A DNA stretch of 34,113 nucleotides, taken from contig JAJXZS010000047.1 of the NCBI GenBank assembly GCA_021779955.1, positions 1 to 34,113 of the forward strand, read 5' to 3'. This DNA is from Chloroflexota bacterium (lineage in GTDB: Bacteria > Chloroflexota > Anaerolineae > Anaerolineales > Anaerolineaceae). The notes below the pieces were generated by a model. It was not told the origin of the DNA and ran no database searches. It was given only the letters and a program-made list of their open reading frames with translations. Made by a program: the position numbers and the translations under genes. How positions within the stretch are numbered: the stretch's first letter is position 1; each line of letters begins with the position of its first letter. Shown one piece after another: positions 11,597-16,455 of this stretch.

Positions 11597-12727
11597 ATGG
11601 ATGAAGCTCCCTTTACATTCGATTTGATTGCCACGCAAACCAACGCCCGAGCCGGAGTCTTCCACACACCCCATGGTGACCTGGAAACCCCCGTGTTCGC
11701 TCCTGTGGGCACACAGGCCACGGTAAAGGCTGTTACCCCTGCCCAGCTCGCAGAGACGGGCGCAACGCTGGTCCTTTCCAATACCTATCACCTCTACCTG
11801 CGTCCCGGGGCTGACCTCGTCGCCGAGATGGGCGGTTTGCACGAGTTCATGCAGTGGCCCAAACCCATGCTCACGGATTCCGGCGGCTTCCAGGTTTTCT
11901 CTCTTTCGGCCATCCGCAAGATCGATGCGGAAGGGGTCACATTCAAGAGCCACATCGACGGCTCGATGCACCGGTTTACCCCCGAAAGCTCCATTCAAAT
12001 CCAGGAAAAGCTCGGCGCAGACATCATCATGGCTTTCGACGAATGCTCCGATCCTTACGACGAGACCTACAATCGGTCCGCCGTCGATCGCACCCACGCA
12101 TGGCTCGAACGCTGCGTCAATGCCAAGACTCGCAACGACCAGGCTCTCTTCGGCATTGTTCAGGGCGGGGTGTTCCCCGAATTGCGGCGCGAGTCAGCGC
12201 GCAAGGTTGCGGGCATGGACCTGCCTGGCCACGCCATCGGAGGGCTTTCAGTCGGTGAATCCAAGGCCGAAATGCACGAAATGATCGAACTGGTGAACGA
12301 GATTTTGCCCACAGGCAAACCTCGCTACCTGATGGGCGTCGGCTCACCCGAAGACCTGATCAACGGGGTGCTGCGCGGTATCGACATTTTCGACTGTGTA
12401 CTGCCGACGCGTCTCGCCAGGCATCAATCTGCTTTCACGCATGCCGGCCGCATCAATTTGATGAACGCTGCCTATGCGCACGATAAGCGCCCGATCGAAG
12501 AAGGCTGTGAATGCTACACCTGCCGCACCTTCACCCGCGCATATCTGCGCCATTTGATCATGGCCAAAGAAATGCTCGCGGCAACGCTCATATCGATCCA
12601 TAACATCCAGTTCCTGGTGACGCTGATGAAGCAGTCGCGCCAGGCAATTCTCAAGGGTCAGTTCGCGAACTTCGCGTCCGATTTCCTCGCGCAGTACAAA
12701 ACCTCTTCGAAAAAGGTGTCGTCATGA
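11597..12727 (+). CDS. tgt: Queuine/preQ1 tRNA-guanine transglycosylase
   Basis: Tgt exchanges guanine at tRNA position 34 for preQ1 in the queuosine pathway. The 376-residue protein has the substrate-pocket aspartate in TDSGGFQVFSL (D94), IMAFDECSD, GIVQGG, and GGLSVGE followed by LPTRLARHQ. The zinc site is C304-E-C306-Y-T-C309 with a downstream His. Length and motifs match bacterial Tgt. It is first in an operon with the fused undecaprenyl-diphosphatase gene, whose ATG overlaps the tgt stop. No queA, yajC or secD, frequent neighbours of tgt elsewhere, are present here. Confidence 0.96.
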   Translation: MDEAPFTFDLIATQTNARAGVFHTPHGDLETPVFAPVGTQATVKAVTPAQLAETGATLVLSNTYHLYLRPGADLVAEMGGLHEFMQWPKPMLTDSGGFQVFSLSAIRKIDAEGVTFKSHIDGSMHRFTPESSIQIQEKLGADIIMAFDECSDPYDETYNRSAVDRTHAWLERCVNAKTRNDQALFGIVQGGVFPELRRESARKVAGMDLPGHAIGGLSVGESKAEMHEMIELVNEILPTGKPRYLMGVGSPEDLINGVLRGIDIFDCVLPTRLARHQSAFTHAGRINLMNAAYAHDKRPIEEGCECYTCRTFTRAYLRHLIMAKEMLAATLISIHNIQFLVTLMKQSRQAILKGQFANFASDFLAQYKTSSKKVSS

Positions 12728-14286
12728 GCATTCTCCAATCCATCATCCTGGGCATCATCCAGGGCTTGACCGAATTTCTACCCGTTTCCAGTTCTGCGCA
12801 TCTCGTGTTGATCCCCTACCTGCTCAAGTGGAACATCCCTGCCAGCCAGGTTTTTCCGTTCGACGTGCTCGTCCAGCTCGGAACCCTCGCCGCCGTGATC
12901 ATCTACTTCTGGCCAGACCTGTGGCAGATTATCAAGGAATTCGTCCTGGGGATCGTCAAAGGCAAACCCTTTGCCGCTTTCGAATCGCGTATGGGCTGGT
13001 ACCTCATCCTGGCGACCATCCCTGCCGGCGTGGCGGGACTTTTTCTGAAAAGCAAGGTCGAAGCGGCCTTCAGCAGCCCGATGGTAACGGCGCTCTTCCT
13101 CTTTCTGACCGCTGCCTTCCTTTTTATTGCCGAGAAACTCGGCAAGCGTCGAAAGAACCTGAGCCAGATGAACTGGCTCGATTCGTTGATTGTCGGCCTC
13201 TTCCAGGCAGTTTCGATCTTCCCTGGCGTTTCACGCTCCGGGTCTACGATCTCTGGCGGCATGCTCCGCGAATATGACAGGCCAACCGCCGCGCGCTTTT
13301 CCTTCCTAATGTCCATCCCTGTGATGCTGGCAGCCGGCGCTTTGAGCGTCAAAGATCTCCTCGATGTACCCCAACTCTCGTCATTCCTACCAGTGATGGC
13401 GATTGGCTTTGTTACGGCAGCGGTCGTTGGCTACTTCTCCATTCGCTGGCTGCTATCCTTCCTGCAGAAGCGTTCGCTGATGGCCTTTGCCATCTACTGC
13501 GCCGCTCTCGCCGTGGCGGTGCTTGGAGTGATCCTGCTTCGCGCGCCTTCGGCCGCGCAGGCGAATGCTGCCGCCGAAACCCCTGTATTAAGCAAGGACT
13601 CGCCGGTTGTGCTGAGGCTGACCTACACCCCCGCCCTCGACGGATCGACAGAAGCGTTTTCCTCCTGCGCCGGCCAGTTATCAGGTACCGGCCTTGTTGT
13701 GCAGGAACGCCCCACCAATTCACTCGCCGCGACAAACGCCGATATCCAGATGAGGTTTGGCGCTCCTGAATCCCTGGCGCTGCCTTCTTACGCACTGGGC
13801 ACCGAGACTCTCGAATTCATAGTCAATCCCTCGAACACGCTGCAAAGCCTGCCGCTCGAAATGGCGCAGCAGGTCTTCAGCGCCAGGTTCGCCACCTGGG
13901 GCGATCTCGCAACCGCTTGCCCGGAGTGCTTTAGCACCGCCCTTCCTGAAAACATCAAGTCCGGCGCAATCGCGCTCAACTTCTACGCTGCTGACGAAGA
14001 TATCCAGGTTTTGATGGAAAGCGCCGTGACCTCAGGCGTTCTCCCCGCTCGCGCGCAGGCGCTTCTCATCCCGGATCCCGCGGCCATGGTCGAGACTGTC
14101 GCAGGTGAAACTCAGGCCATCGGTTACGTACCCTCGGCATCGCTGGCCGGTTCGGTCAGGCAGATCCGGATCACGGGGATCGACTCTGCAAAGTTGGAGT
14201 TGCCTGTGCTGGCGATTACGCAAACCACAGCGCAAGGCGCAGCGCTCGCCTGGCTGGAATGCCTGCAGAGCGCGCTCGCGCACTGA
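12724..14286 (+). CDS. uppP: Undecaprenyl-diphosphatase (UppP/BacA) fused to a PstS-like substrate-binding domain
   Basis: Residues 1 to about 272 are a complete UppP, which removes phosphate from undecaprenyl diphosphate outside the membrane so the lipid carrier can be reused for peptidoglycan. QGLTEFLPVSSSAHL supplies the acidic motif (E17) and His26, and FPGVSRSGST (about 166-175) is the second motif; about eight membrane helices are present. UppP normally ends near 270 residues. Here roughly 245 more residues follow without a frameshift. The extension looks like a type 2 periplasmic-binding fold: VNPSNTLQSLPLEMAQQVFS then WGDL resembles the PstS family 'NP...L...IF...W' stretch, and ETQAIGYVP resembles its later 'AIGY' segment. 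The domain would be extracytoplasmic if the last helix ends outside, which is inference. The ATG overlaps the tgt stop. Confidence 0.9.
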   Translation: MSILQSIILGIIQGLTEFLPVSSSAHLVLIPYLLKWNIPASQVFPFDVLVQLGTLAAVIIYFWPDLWQIIKEFVLGIVKGKPFAAFESRMGWYLILATIPAGVAGLFLKSKVEAAFSSPMVTALFLFLTAAFLFIAEKLGKRRKNLSQMNWLDSLIVGLFQAVSIFPGVSRSGSTISGGMLREYDRPTAARFSFLMSIPVMLAAGALSVKDLLDVPQLSSFLPVMAIGFVTAAVVGYFSIRWLLSFLQKRSLMAFAIYCAALAVAVLGVILLRAPSAAQANAAAETPVLSKDSPVVLRLTYTPALDGSTEAFSSCAGQLSGTGLVVQERPTNSLAATNADIQMRFGAPESLALPSYALGTETLEFIVNPSNTLQSLPLEMAQQVFSARFATWGDLATACPECFSTALPENIKSGAIALNFYAADEDIQVLMESAVTSGVLPARAQALLIPDPAAMVETVAGETQAIGYVPSASLAGSVRQIRITGIDSAKLELPVLAITQTTAQGAALAWLECLQSALAH

Positions 14287-14557: not shown

Positions 14558-15901
14558 TTACGCCGTTTCGAGGTAACGCCCAACTTCCCAGTCCATCACA
14601 TGAAGCCTGTACTCCTCCCACTCGGCTTTCTTGGCGCGCACAAAGGCTCCGTAGAGCGCGTCATCGAGCGCATCCTTGATCACCGCGTCGGCTTCGAACT
14701 CGATCAGGGCTTCGCGGAGGGAGCCCGGCAGCTCATCGACGCCGAGCGCATGCCGTTCGTCTGAGGTCATTTCGTAGACGTTGATGTTGTTGAGCGGTTT
14801 TGGAGGTACGAGCCCCCGGTTGATCCCGTCCAGCGCGGCTGCAAGCATCACATTGTAAGCCAGGTAAGGATTGCAGGATGGATCAGGGCAGCGCAGTTCG
14901 GCGCGCGCAGCGCTGCTCATACCCTTGTTGTAGCGCGGAATGCGAATGAGCGCGGAGCGGTTGGTTTGAGCCCATCCGATATACACGGGAGCCTCATACC
15001 CCGGAACGAGCCTTTTATACGAATTGACCGTCGGCGCCAGGACGGCCGACATCGCTTTGGCGTGCACCAGTTGGCCTGCGATAAACTGGTAGGCGATCTT
15101 TGAGAGGTTGAACGTGTCGTTGGGGTCATAGAATGCATTTTTGCCATCAAGAGTCGCCAGAGATTGGTGGCAATGCATCCCCGAACCATTGATCCCGAAG
15201 ATCGGTTTGGGCATGAAAGAAGCCAGCAGCCCGTTTTGAGCCGCAATGGCTTTTACTGTGTACTTCATGGTCAGCACGTTATCGGCAGAGCGCAGCGCAT
15301 CGTCGAAGCGGAAGTCGATCTCGTGCTGCGCGAGCGCCACTTCGTGATGCCCGACTTCGACATCGAGCCCCATCGTCTCGAGCGCCTGGATCAGCTCCGT
15401 GCGCACTCGCACCGCCTCATCGTTTGGGCTGAAATCGAAATAAGTCCCGACGTCGTGCGGCACTGGGTGGATGGTCTCGGAACCGTTGCCATTGCGGCGG
15501 AAAAGGAAGAATTCGGGCTCGGAACCGACGTTGAATGTGTAGCCTTTCTTCTTGAGCGCTTCGAGCGACCTCCGCAGCGCGCCGCGCGGATCCCCTGCAA
15601 ACGGAGAGCCGTCAGGCAGGTAGATGTCGCAAAAGAGACGCGCGCGTTTGAGATCATCCGGAGACCAGGGAAGCACTGCGTATGTGTCGATATCGGGACG
15701 CAGTAACATGTCGCTTTCCTGGATGCGCGAAAAACCTTCCACTGATGAACCGTCGAACCAGATGCCGTTGTCCAGGTCTTCCGCAAGCCGGCCGATGGGC
15801 GCATCGACGCTCTTGACCGAGCCGGTGACATCCGTGAATTGGAAGGAAATGAATTTAACCTGATCAGCTTCGATACGCGAGAACAACTCTTTCTTATCCA
15901 T
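14558..15901 (-). CDS. glnA: Glutamine synthetase type I
   Basis: GlnA makes glutamine from glutamate, ammonia and ATP in the cytoplasm. The 447-residue protein is type I length. The N-terminal beta-grasp contains FQFTDVTGSVKSVD and WFDGSSVEGF. The catalytic domain has SEPEFFLF, GHHEVALAQHEIDF, NGSGMHCHQSL and NRSALIRIPRY, then RCPDPSCNPYLAYN. The shorter length and lack of a visible Asn-Leu-Tyr adenylylation site suggest the GSI-alpha class. The frame is open to 15997, but the ATG at 15901 is preceded by AAGGAG with good spacing and starts at the canonical MDKKELF-like N-terminus, so it was chosen. It is monocistronic, ends at a bidirectional terminator, and has a strong promoter with a structured leader of about 320 nt. 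Confidence 0.95.
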   Translation of the reverse strand: MDKKELFSRIEADQVKFISFQFTDVTGSVKSVDAPIGRLAEDLDNGIWFDGSSVEGFSRIQESDMLLRPDIDTYAVLPWSPDDLKRARLFCDIYLPDGSPFAGDPRGALRRSLEALKKKGYTFNVGSEPEFFLFRRNGNGSETIHPVPHDVGTYFDFSPNDEAVRVRTELIQALETMGLDVEVGHHEVALAQHEIDFRFDDALRSADNVLTMKYTVKAIAAQNGLLASFMPKPIFGINGSGMHCHQSLATLDGKNAFYDPNDTFNLSKIAYQFIAGQLVHAKAMSAVLAPTVNSYKRLVPGYEAPVYIGWAQTNRSALIRIPRYNKGMSSAARAELRCPDPSCNPYLAYNVMLAAALDGINRGLVPPKPLNNINVYEMTSDERHALGVDELPGSLREALIEFEADAVIKDALDDALYGAFVRAKKAEWEEYRLHVMDWEVGRYLETA

Positions 15902-15929
15902 CTTGCGCTCCTTAAAAAAGTGAATGAAT

Positions 15930-16026
15930 CCAGTCAACTCGAGCAGCCCGACTGGTGGATGAGGTTGAAAACCAAATACAGGTGAACATTGGTTCACCTA
16001 CCTTTGATCCAACCTTGTCCCAGTCG
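15930..16026 (-). promoter_or_regulatory. glnA leader: long nested hairpin with an alternative competing stem
   Basis: Read on the minus strand, a long interrupted hairpin is built from stems 16026-16020 with 955-949 (CGACTGG/CCAGTCG), 16015-16010 with 967-962 (AGGTTG/CAACCT), 16008-16003 with 976-971, and a perfect apical AGGTGAAC-CAAT-GTTCACCT (15999-15980). The 3' strand of its outer stem (955-950) can instead pair with GACTGG at 935-930, forming a second hairpin followed 10 nt later by a U6 tract just before the AAGGAG of glnA. The two pairings exclude each other, the logic of an attenuator, although the U tract is too far from the stem for a classic terminator. Confidence 0.55.
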
Positions 16027-16066
16027 TCGCCGTCTGGTTTTCAGTTTTCACAGTTTTACAGGAATT

Positions 16067-16198
16067 GAAGCCCCGGCAGGGCTTCGGAGGCATCCGCTGA
16101 TCGATCGATTTTCCTCCGGAAACATCCCGGAGTTAACTCCCTCTCGCGAAGGAGAACCTCCACCTCGTCATCTCGAATGAGACTCAGCCGCTCGTTCC
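16067..16198 (-). ncRNA. Candidate structured leader RNA of glnA, with glmS-core-like blocks
   Basis: On the minus strand, downstream of the glnA promoter, ATGACGAGGTGGAGGTT (from 16171) and GCGGATGCCTCC (16097-16086) flank a helix GGAGG/CCTCC (16161-16157 with 16090-16086). A short hairpin TCTC-ATTC-GAGA (16182-16171) precedes GACGAGG, and GCTGA at 16188-16184 can pair with TCAGC at 16100-16096 as a pseudoknot. Further hairpins are CTCCGG/CCGGAG (16114-16132) and a perfect 7-bp GAAGCCC/GGGCTTC stem (16067-16085). From memory, GACGAGG, GGAGGTT and GCGGATGCCTCC are conserved blocks of the glmS ribozyme. The insert between them is longer here, and the downstream gene is glnA, not glmS. A cis-regulatory RNA is likely; its ligand and any catalytic activity are unknown. 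Confidence 0.6.
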
Positions 16199-16224
16199 AA
16201 TTATTCGGTTTTCACAATGTGGTA

Positions 16225-16253
16225 ATCATACAGACTGGAATAAGGTTTGTCAA
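16225..16253 (-). promoter_or_regulatory. Strong sigma-70-type promoter of glnA
   Basis: Minus strand: consensus TTGACA (16253-16248), a 17-bp spacer, then TATGAT (16230-16225). Transcription should begin near 16218, giving an untranslated leader of about 320 nt that spans the two structured elements before glnA. Confidence 0.8.
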
Positions 16254-16298
16254 TAGGATTGTCGATATTTTAAGATGAACAATCTCGTGCCTCGAGTC

Positions 16299-16325
16299 AA
16301 AGACCTATGCAGGTCATATGTCTTT
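16299..16325. repeat. Imperfect 11-bp inverted repeat upstream of glnA and the radical SAM gene
   Basis: AAAGACCTATG (16299-16309) and CATATGTCTTT (16315-16325) are inverted repeats with one mismatch around a 5-bp spacer. It lies 46 bp upstream of the glnA -35 box and about 200 bp before the divergent radical SAM gene. The size fits a dimeric regulator operator; a hairpin is the alternative. Confidence 0.45.
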
Positions 16326-16455
16326 CACTGGATCTCCACAATAAATCTACCTATTTTTAGCCGCTTGTAGGTATTCTTACCCATACGCTTTACCAACCTG
16401 CCTGCTATGATGAGAACTGTAATACCCGAAACACGAACGGTCGTTGATTATTCCC

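Follow-up and report, generated by a model that had tools for sequence, protein, structure and literature searches.

The window, meaning the whole 34,113-nucleotide stretch of DNA analysed here, carries on its minus strand a promoter, a leader of about 300 nt and glnA, in this order. The gene downstream of the leader had been read from the sequence as glutamine synthetase, and it encodes a type I GlnA (TIGR00653); the TTGACA-17-TATGAT promoter was likewise found in its predicted form. Promoter-like sites (at least 9 of 12 consensus matches, spacing of 16-18, 10-90 nt upstream of the predicted cleavage-site G(+1)) are present in 46 of 60 glnA-type leaders, compared with 18% of shuffled sequences. 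Elsewhere in the window, positions 12724-14286 contain a UppP-like ORF of 520 aa, about twice the length of the model.

The original prediction recognized blocks in this leader that resemble conserved positions of the glmS ribozyme, which cleaves its own strand on binding the cell-wall precursor glucosamine-6-phosphate (GlcN6P), and considered it either related to or convergent with that class. Both blocks, GACGAGGTGGAGGTT at 16169-16155 and GCGGATGCCTCC at 16097-16086, and their GGAGG/CCTCC pairing are found at the predicted places, and they form the core of an end-to-end alignment with the glmS ribozyme family RF00234. The proposed extent of 16067-16198 holds for the core only, as the element reaches to about 15998 and takes in P4 with its GNRA loop and the P3.1 pseudoknot. 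At the Rfam gathering score (37 bits) no RF00234 match was obtained in the window, and a scan of the whole window with all of Rfam at gathering score was empty. A search with the Rfam glmS covariance model had been proposed as a check; in a permissive Rfam scan of 551 bases, RF00234 ranked first with all 167 model positions aligned and a score below the cut-off (20.9 bits, E 0.0091). The window RNA is therefore assigned to the glmS class via the aligned subfamily described below, its own score being under the 37-bit cut-off. Other families in the permissive scan (including sar, mir-5897, sR32 and PyrR208) gave weak matches to the leader, come from implausible sources and were rejected. Neither the window at gathering score nor positions 15900-16450 at E up to 10 gave a match to the glutamine riboswitch RF01739. 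The single-sequence minimum-energy fold of the leader is unexceptional (z -1.24), and the drawn P0 and pseudoknots are absent from it.

A comparison of related glnA leaders, also suggested in the original prediction, was based on a plain MAFFT alignment (A1) of 48 of the 52 non-redundant glnA leaders, with four shorter matches (L104, L123, L125, L141) left out. The scored structure, comprising the canonical glmS helices and three extra stems (61 pairs), was drawn on A1 itself. Two-sided changes occur at 44 of the 61 drawn pairs, and this count is the stronger evidence because the slid control is biased in favour of a structure drawn on the same alignment: 91.8% of the cells are paired compared with 40-45% in slid controls and none of 500 shuffles reaching as high, and the covariation score is 0.443 compared with 0.194 for shuffles and at most 0.127 for slid controls. 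In A1, two-sided changes were identified in P1, P2, P3, P3.1, P4, both extra core hairpins and P0; P2.1 and P2.2 have none, so that their support is conservation, not covariation. The double-pseudoknot core is nearly always paired (P2 in 99%, P2.1 in 96% and P2.2 in 100% of cells), and the three helix segments of P4 are paired in 83%, 69% and 90% of cells. The P3/P3.1 pseudoknot and a P4 with a GNRA loop and an A-rich internal loop, both features of the glmS class, are thus present. The longer insert and additional hairpins noted in the original prediction are real: two extra core hairpins are located between P2 and the AUCG strand and, in a model-fitted alignment, are common to the glmS-linked copies of these bacteria. 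Furthermore, nucleotides -9 to -5 pair with the segment after P3 to form P0, with two-sided changes at three of five pairs in A1 and at five of five in A2, an alignment comprising 101 RNAs of various gene contexts, the latter count being only supporting since A2 was fitted to the model.

Features of the glnA leader and its surroundings in the window (A1 and A2, alignments as defined in the text)
Feature	Position	Strand	Evidence or remark
Sigma-70-like promoter TTGACA-17-TATGAT	16253-16225	minus	-10 box ends 33 nt 5' of G(+1); sequence
Whole glmS-class ribozyme, predicted, glnA leader	16203-15998	minus	RF00234 model 1-167, 20.9 bits; 168.7 bits with model R1, built from the 48 glnA leaders of A1 including that of the window
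P0 5' strand GGAA, 5' of cleavage site	16195-16198	minus	pairs with 16064-16061; 90% of cells paired (A1)
Predicted cleavage site A(-1)/G(+1)	16192/16191	minus	RF00234 alignment
P2.2 5' strand CG(G)CUG, position 4 (16188) bulged	16185-16190	minus	pairs with 16099-16095
P1 hairpin	16171-16182	minus	two-sided changes at 5/6 pairs
ACGAGG: P2.1 first strand CGA (16167-16165) and predicted catalytic G (16163)	16163-16168	minus	invariant in 48 rows of A1
P2, GGAGG 16161-16157 with CCUCC 16090-16086	16086-16161	minus	encloses the two extra hairpins; two-sided changes at 2/5 pairs
Extra core hairpin 1, GNRA-type loop GCGA	16137-16154	minus	two-sided changes at 6/6 pairs
Extra core hairpin 2	16114-16132	minus	two-sided changes at 6/6 pairs
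AUCG: P2.1 second strand and predicted cofactor pocket	16106-16109	minus	in 48/48 rows of A1, in register in 45
P2.2 3' strand CAGCG	16095-16099	minus	UCAGCGG invariant in 48 rows of A1
P3 hairpin	16067-16085	minus	two-sided changes at 4/5 pairs
P0 3' strand UUCC, after P3	16061-16064	minus	A1, A2
P4, internal loop GAAAA/GACAA, GNRA loop GCGA 16030-16027	16011-16046	minus	two-sided changes at 14/14 pairs in three helix segments
P3.1 3' strand GGUAG	15998-16002	minus	pairs with P3 loop CUGCC 16079-16075; two-sided changes at 4/6 pairs, 81% of cells paired
glnA, type I glutamine synthetase, 447 aa	15901-14558	minus	TIGR00653, 532.3 bits, cut-off 429.15

The nucleotides expected at the active site of a glmS-class ribozyme are retained. 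The position preceding the predicted cleavage site, A(-1), is an A in 59 of 60 glnA-type leaders. The predicted catalytic G at 16163 presumably corresponds to G40 in the numbering of T. tengcongensis, and we take AUCG at 16106-16109 to be A50, U51, C52 and G53 of the same ribozyme. An excerpt of PMC7125110 assigns P2.1 residues 28-30 and 43-45 to the active site and cofactor pocket and describes the C2-G56 pair as critical; the positions correspond here to CGA, UCG and C16190-G16095. The cleavage-site G, the catalytic G and the pocket nucleotides, with their roles as given in that excerpt, are therefore all present, and the conserved pocket points to GlcN6P as the likely ligand. An RNA that has kept the fold as a processing or stability element, with cofactor-free cleavage or none, appears very improbable: a few active-site mutations did abolish the need for GlcN6P in laboratory variants, as stated in PMC11602151, but the conservation of cleavage-site G, catalytic G and pocket would be hard to explain without regulated cleavage.

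The original prediction made its case dependent on conservation in related glnA leaders, and 62 of the 101 family genomes indeed have the element before glnA. RF00234 matches (E up to 0.1) were identified in 84 of these 101 genomes, with scores above the Rfam cut-off in 30. When the downstream sequences were searched with tblastn for GlnA and GlmS, the 141 RF00234 places in the family comprised 62 before glnA, 77 before glmS and two before a small ORF; copies before glnA occur in 62 genomes, copies before glmS in 76 and both kinds in 54. The redundancy-filtered lists exclude three loci with matches shorter than 130 nt (L131, L018, L120). The glnA start codon follows the end of the match by 53-205 nt in the 62 glnA places (median 115; the value of 205 belongs to a partial match), and in a few glmS places the end of the match touches the start codon. 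Scores of at least 37 bits were reached by 20 of the 62 glnA-linked matches (best 53.1) and 14 of the 77 glmS-linked ones. The genome of the window itself contains a sister copy immediately before glmS (RF00234, 26.9 bits, contig C47:1084-1268) and a weak third match (12.5 bits, E 2.15, model positions 54-88). At the end of C47, the glmS frame continues into acyl-CoA-dehydrogenase-like sequence as judged by eye (L001 1-1017), probably an assembly chimera; the leader and the gene start are clear. Beside this glmS, a glycine riboswitch (RF00504, 63.1 bits; L001 1457-1557, plus strand) precedes an ORF resembling glycine cleavage H protein. In another genome (L045), glnA and glmS adjoin and each has its own ribozyme copy.

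Cultured strains share the arrangement, with the RNA 110-111 nt before glnA in Bellilinea caldifistulae (L180) and Levilinea saccharolytica (L176). Among 80 named glnA loci, the RNA was identified upstream of 62 (up to 350 nt away at 39 loci, 1.1-2.4 kb away at 23). The remaining 18 lack it; for ten of these, that of the cultured Leptolinea tardivitalis among them, the upstream sequence extended over about 3 kb. Not every glnA locus therefore has this arrangement. In the genome of the window, another and larger gene for glutamine synthetase (contig C2) has no such leader RNA, so that control would fall on one isoform.

Homology rather than convergence as the origin of the likeness to the glmS ribozyme is supported by the end-to-end RF00234 alignment, the 20 of 62 glnA-linked matches above the cut-off, the covariation in P1, P2, P3, P3.1 and P4 and the glmS copy in the same genome. 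Of the two options in the original prediction, the relationship to glmS stands and convergence falls. A chance or convergent likeness would fit the score of the window, which is under the curated cut-off, but it is ruled out by the family relatives and the covariation, together with the sister copies before glmS, and its probability is practically nil.

The pseudoknot proposed from GCTGA (16188-16184) and TCAGC (16100-16096) involves blocks that are present where predicted and regions that do pair, but in another register. We redrew it as P2.2 with G16188 (position 4) bulged, because 9 of 60 family leaders have A at this position (GCGACUG; the other 51 have G). The resulting pairs are C16190-G16095, G16189-C16096, C16187-G16097, U16186-A16098 and G16185-C16099. 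Opposite UCAGCGG, the glnA form thus pairs C5-G54, U6-A53 and G7-C52, with the bulge at position 4 and not 6. This difference separates the two groups in the family completely: GCG[G/A]CUG was found at P2.2 in 60 of 60 glnA-linked and 0 of 77 glmS-linked RNAs, and GCGCNNG in all 77 glmS-linked RNAs. The bulge at position 6 of P2.2 that is characteristic of the glmS class is therefore absent from the glnA subfamily, whereas the glmS-linked members keep C4. These motif counts cover 60 of the 62 glnA places, leaving out L131 (partial Rfam match, model positions 109-157) and L104, whose Rfam match falls downstream of its true core and whose leader is the same as that of L198, with GCGACUG. Three of the 60 leaders contain the signature motif twice; in the core-motif scan, roughly five of the octamers assigned to positions 1-8 in glnA-type leaders were mis-picked upstream, and the signature was recounted separately. 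Outside the family the signature has exceptions: where the RNA is present at named glnA loci (62 cases), GCG[GA]CUG was seen in 56, two have GCGUAUG (L243, L250), one is ambiguous (L190) and three are cut at the 5' side.

Further differences accompany the P2.2 signature. Position 26 is free in glnA-type RNAs (G in 37, A in 10, U in 9 and C in 4 of 60) and G in all 77 family glmS-type RNAs, and P4 was detected by a strict motif test in 45 of 60 glnA-type and 1 of 77 glmS-type RNAs. In a core tree (113 columns of a model-fitted alignment, midpoint root), all 44 glnA-type RNAs form one weakly supported group (0.69) without glmS-linked members. According to PMC7125110, the bulged P2.2 nucleotide is at least 97% conserved and P2.2 mutations are strongly detrimental, and its section 14 infers from double mutants that bulges moved towards the centre of P2.2 can retain activity. 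Since glnA-type RNAs do not fix the nucleotide at position 26, which belongs to a base triple in known structures, and P2.2 mutations are reported there as detrimental, activity or affinity could differ between the two types. The complete split at the core and the separate group in the tree would also suit a change of cofactor in the glnA subfamily to another amine metabolite linked to nitrogen status, a change that would include the altered P2.2 and the free position 26; rare riboswitch variants with other ligands are known in other classes (PMC10043782). We nevertheless regard this as improbable, since the P2.1 strands CGA and UCG and the C2-G56 pair at the active site and pocket are unaltered, and the altered positions are not among the ligand contacts named in the excerpt of PMC7125110.

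Outside the family, model R1 (E up to 0.001) matched 179 of 298 genomes of the class and 107 of 350 genomes of the phylum. Genomes with two R1 matches all belong to two families of one order in the phylum set, and the class set contains four more from other families. Seventy class-level places comprised 5 before glnA, 52 before glmS (three with an intervening gene) and 13 before neither; these numbers are not a census, since 40 places were hand-chosen, favouring high scores and the sister family, and 30 were taken automatically, and four of the five glnA cases (including that of the window) belong to the family already counted. Of the 52 class-level glmS-linked RNAs, 50 have the glmS form of P2.2, a further one proved to have it when inspected, and one is ambiguous. 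Nine of the 13 places before neither gene are from the sister family, lie before an Ada-like gene (assigned by Pfam in one and by sequence likeness in the rest; one locus has an extra small ORF first) and all have the glnA signature. In two loci of the sister-family type (L203 599-3001, L242 621-3001), the RNA is followed in an operon-like order by an Ada-like AraC/methyltransferase gene, an EamA transporter gene and glnA. The 17 phylum-level loci comprised two before glnA, nine before glmS and six before neither within the stretch examined.

Additional genes were observed behind the RNA. In two genomes of genus g30, an additional RNA of the glnA type lies before a 44-46-aa ORF whose product ends in IATGG (L314 1177-1407, L316 1175-1400); in a third genome (L315 1708-1922) the RNA can still be recognized (126.8 bits), although its core is disrupted (GAGGCUG, ACAAGG), and it is thus probably degraded. 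Five weak relatives of the small protein occur in other genera without the RNA; as a guess, its role could be to regulate glutamine synthetase. In three genomes of a different family, a glmS-type RNA lies before a gene for a DegT/DnrJ sugar aminotransferase (L168 1501-1770, L258 301-581 and L259 814-1077, the last assigned by sequence likeness only). Furthermore, the ORF immediately behind another glmS-type RNA (L277 1810-2050) contains a glutamate synthase domain (PF01645, 69 bits), and an ORF with GTPase and SIS domains is located between ribozyme and glmS in L163 (229-1742), with similar cases by sequence likeness in L167 and L252.

Judging from sequence, the glnA leader is very probably a full-length glmS-class ribozyme of a distinct subfamily that mediates GlcN6P-dependent self-cleavage of the glnA mRNA. 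GlmS converts glutamine and fructose-6-phosphate to GlcN6P. As GlmS consumes glutamine, regulation of glnA by GlcN6P would have a purpose, and this group of Chloroflexota probably couples nitrogen assimilation directly to its amino-sugar supply. At high concentrations, GlcN6P would bind the preformed pocket and serve as cofactor for cleavage between A16192 and G16191, and the 3' piece, with a 5'-hydroxyl end and glnA, would then be destroyed by RNase J. The genome contains a TIGR00649 gene (MG423; 581.8 bits, cut-off 400), a family which we take to be that of RNase J. Glutamine synthetase would drop together with GlmS, whose mRNA has its own copy, and the destruction of glnA mRNA at high GlcN6P would close a loop from the product to the glutamine supply; repression as the direction of control is suggested by analogy with glmS itself. 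Joining all observations, we tentatively hypothesize, as a possible though on balance doubtful reading, that a duplicated and specialized Anaerolineales subfamily of the glmS ribozyme couples nitrogen assimilation to cell-wall amino-sugar supply, that the shifted P2.2 makes it respond at a different level of GlcN6P or use another cofactor, so that the outputs of glmS and glnA are set separately by a single metabolite, and that in one genus the same RNA also governs the 44-46-residue protein, for which glutamine synthetase is a possible target.

Descriptions of the glmS ribozyme usually present it as a device for a single gene, and none of it before glnA was found in the literature searched. 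A survey outside that search (McCown 2011, RNA 17:728) reportedly located all but two of 463 glmS ribozymes in glmS mRNAs and is also said to describe Deinococcus-Thermus variants with extra core stems. The class itself is known; what appears new is a subfamily with its own core signature and the target gene glnA. In 62 of the 101 family genomes, cultured strains among them, a glmS-class RNA precedes another central gene, that of glutamine synthetase. Two questions follow: can a metabolite-dependent ribozyme coordinate two pathways at differing set points, and do natural RNAs make use of the shifted P2.2 bulge to which mutagenesis points?

Compared with glmS-linked RF00234 ribozymes, the glnA RNA has the same cleavage-site G, P1, P2, P2.1, P2.2, P3, P3.1, P4 (GNRA and A-rich internal loop), pocket and catalytic nucleotides; it differs in its position before glnA, in the P2.2 bulge at position 4 instead of 6, and in the two extra hairpins between P2 and P2.1 and P0, both of which are also found in Chloroflexota glmS-linked copies in the model-fitted alignment. 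The glmS-linked copies of the family (e.g. L001) share the extra core hairpins, P0 and the pocket with the glnA copies, but have GCGCNNG at P2.2 and a P4 that is mostly missed by the strict motif test, whereas the glnA copies keep it. The glutamine riboswitches (glnA motif RF01739 and downstream-peptide motif), whose structure is unrelated to that of the glmS ribozyme, likewise place glutamine synthetase or its small-protein inhibitors under RNA control. In contrast to what is predicted for the glnA RNA, their ligand is glutamine and they are not ribozymes; they are reported as restricted to cyanobacteria (PMC6316151). The same paper lists GlcN6P as a feedback inhibitor of enterobacterial glutamine synthetase; in this cumulative feedback inhibition, GlcN6P likewise lowers glutamine synthetase output, but acts on the enzyme and not on the mRNA. 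If the proposed function is true, the glnA ribozyme would be an mRNA-level counterpart to this classic enzyme-level feedback by GlcN6P.
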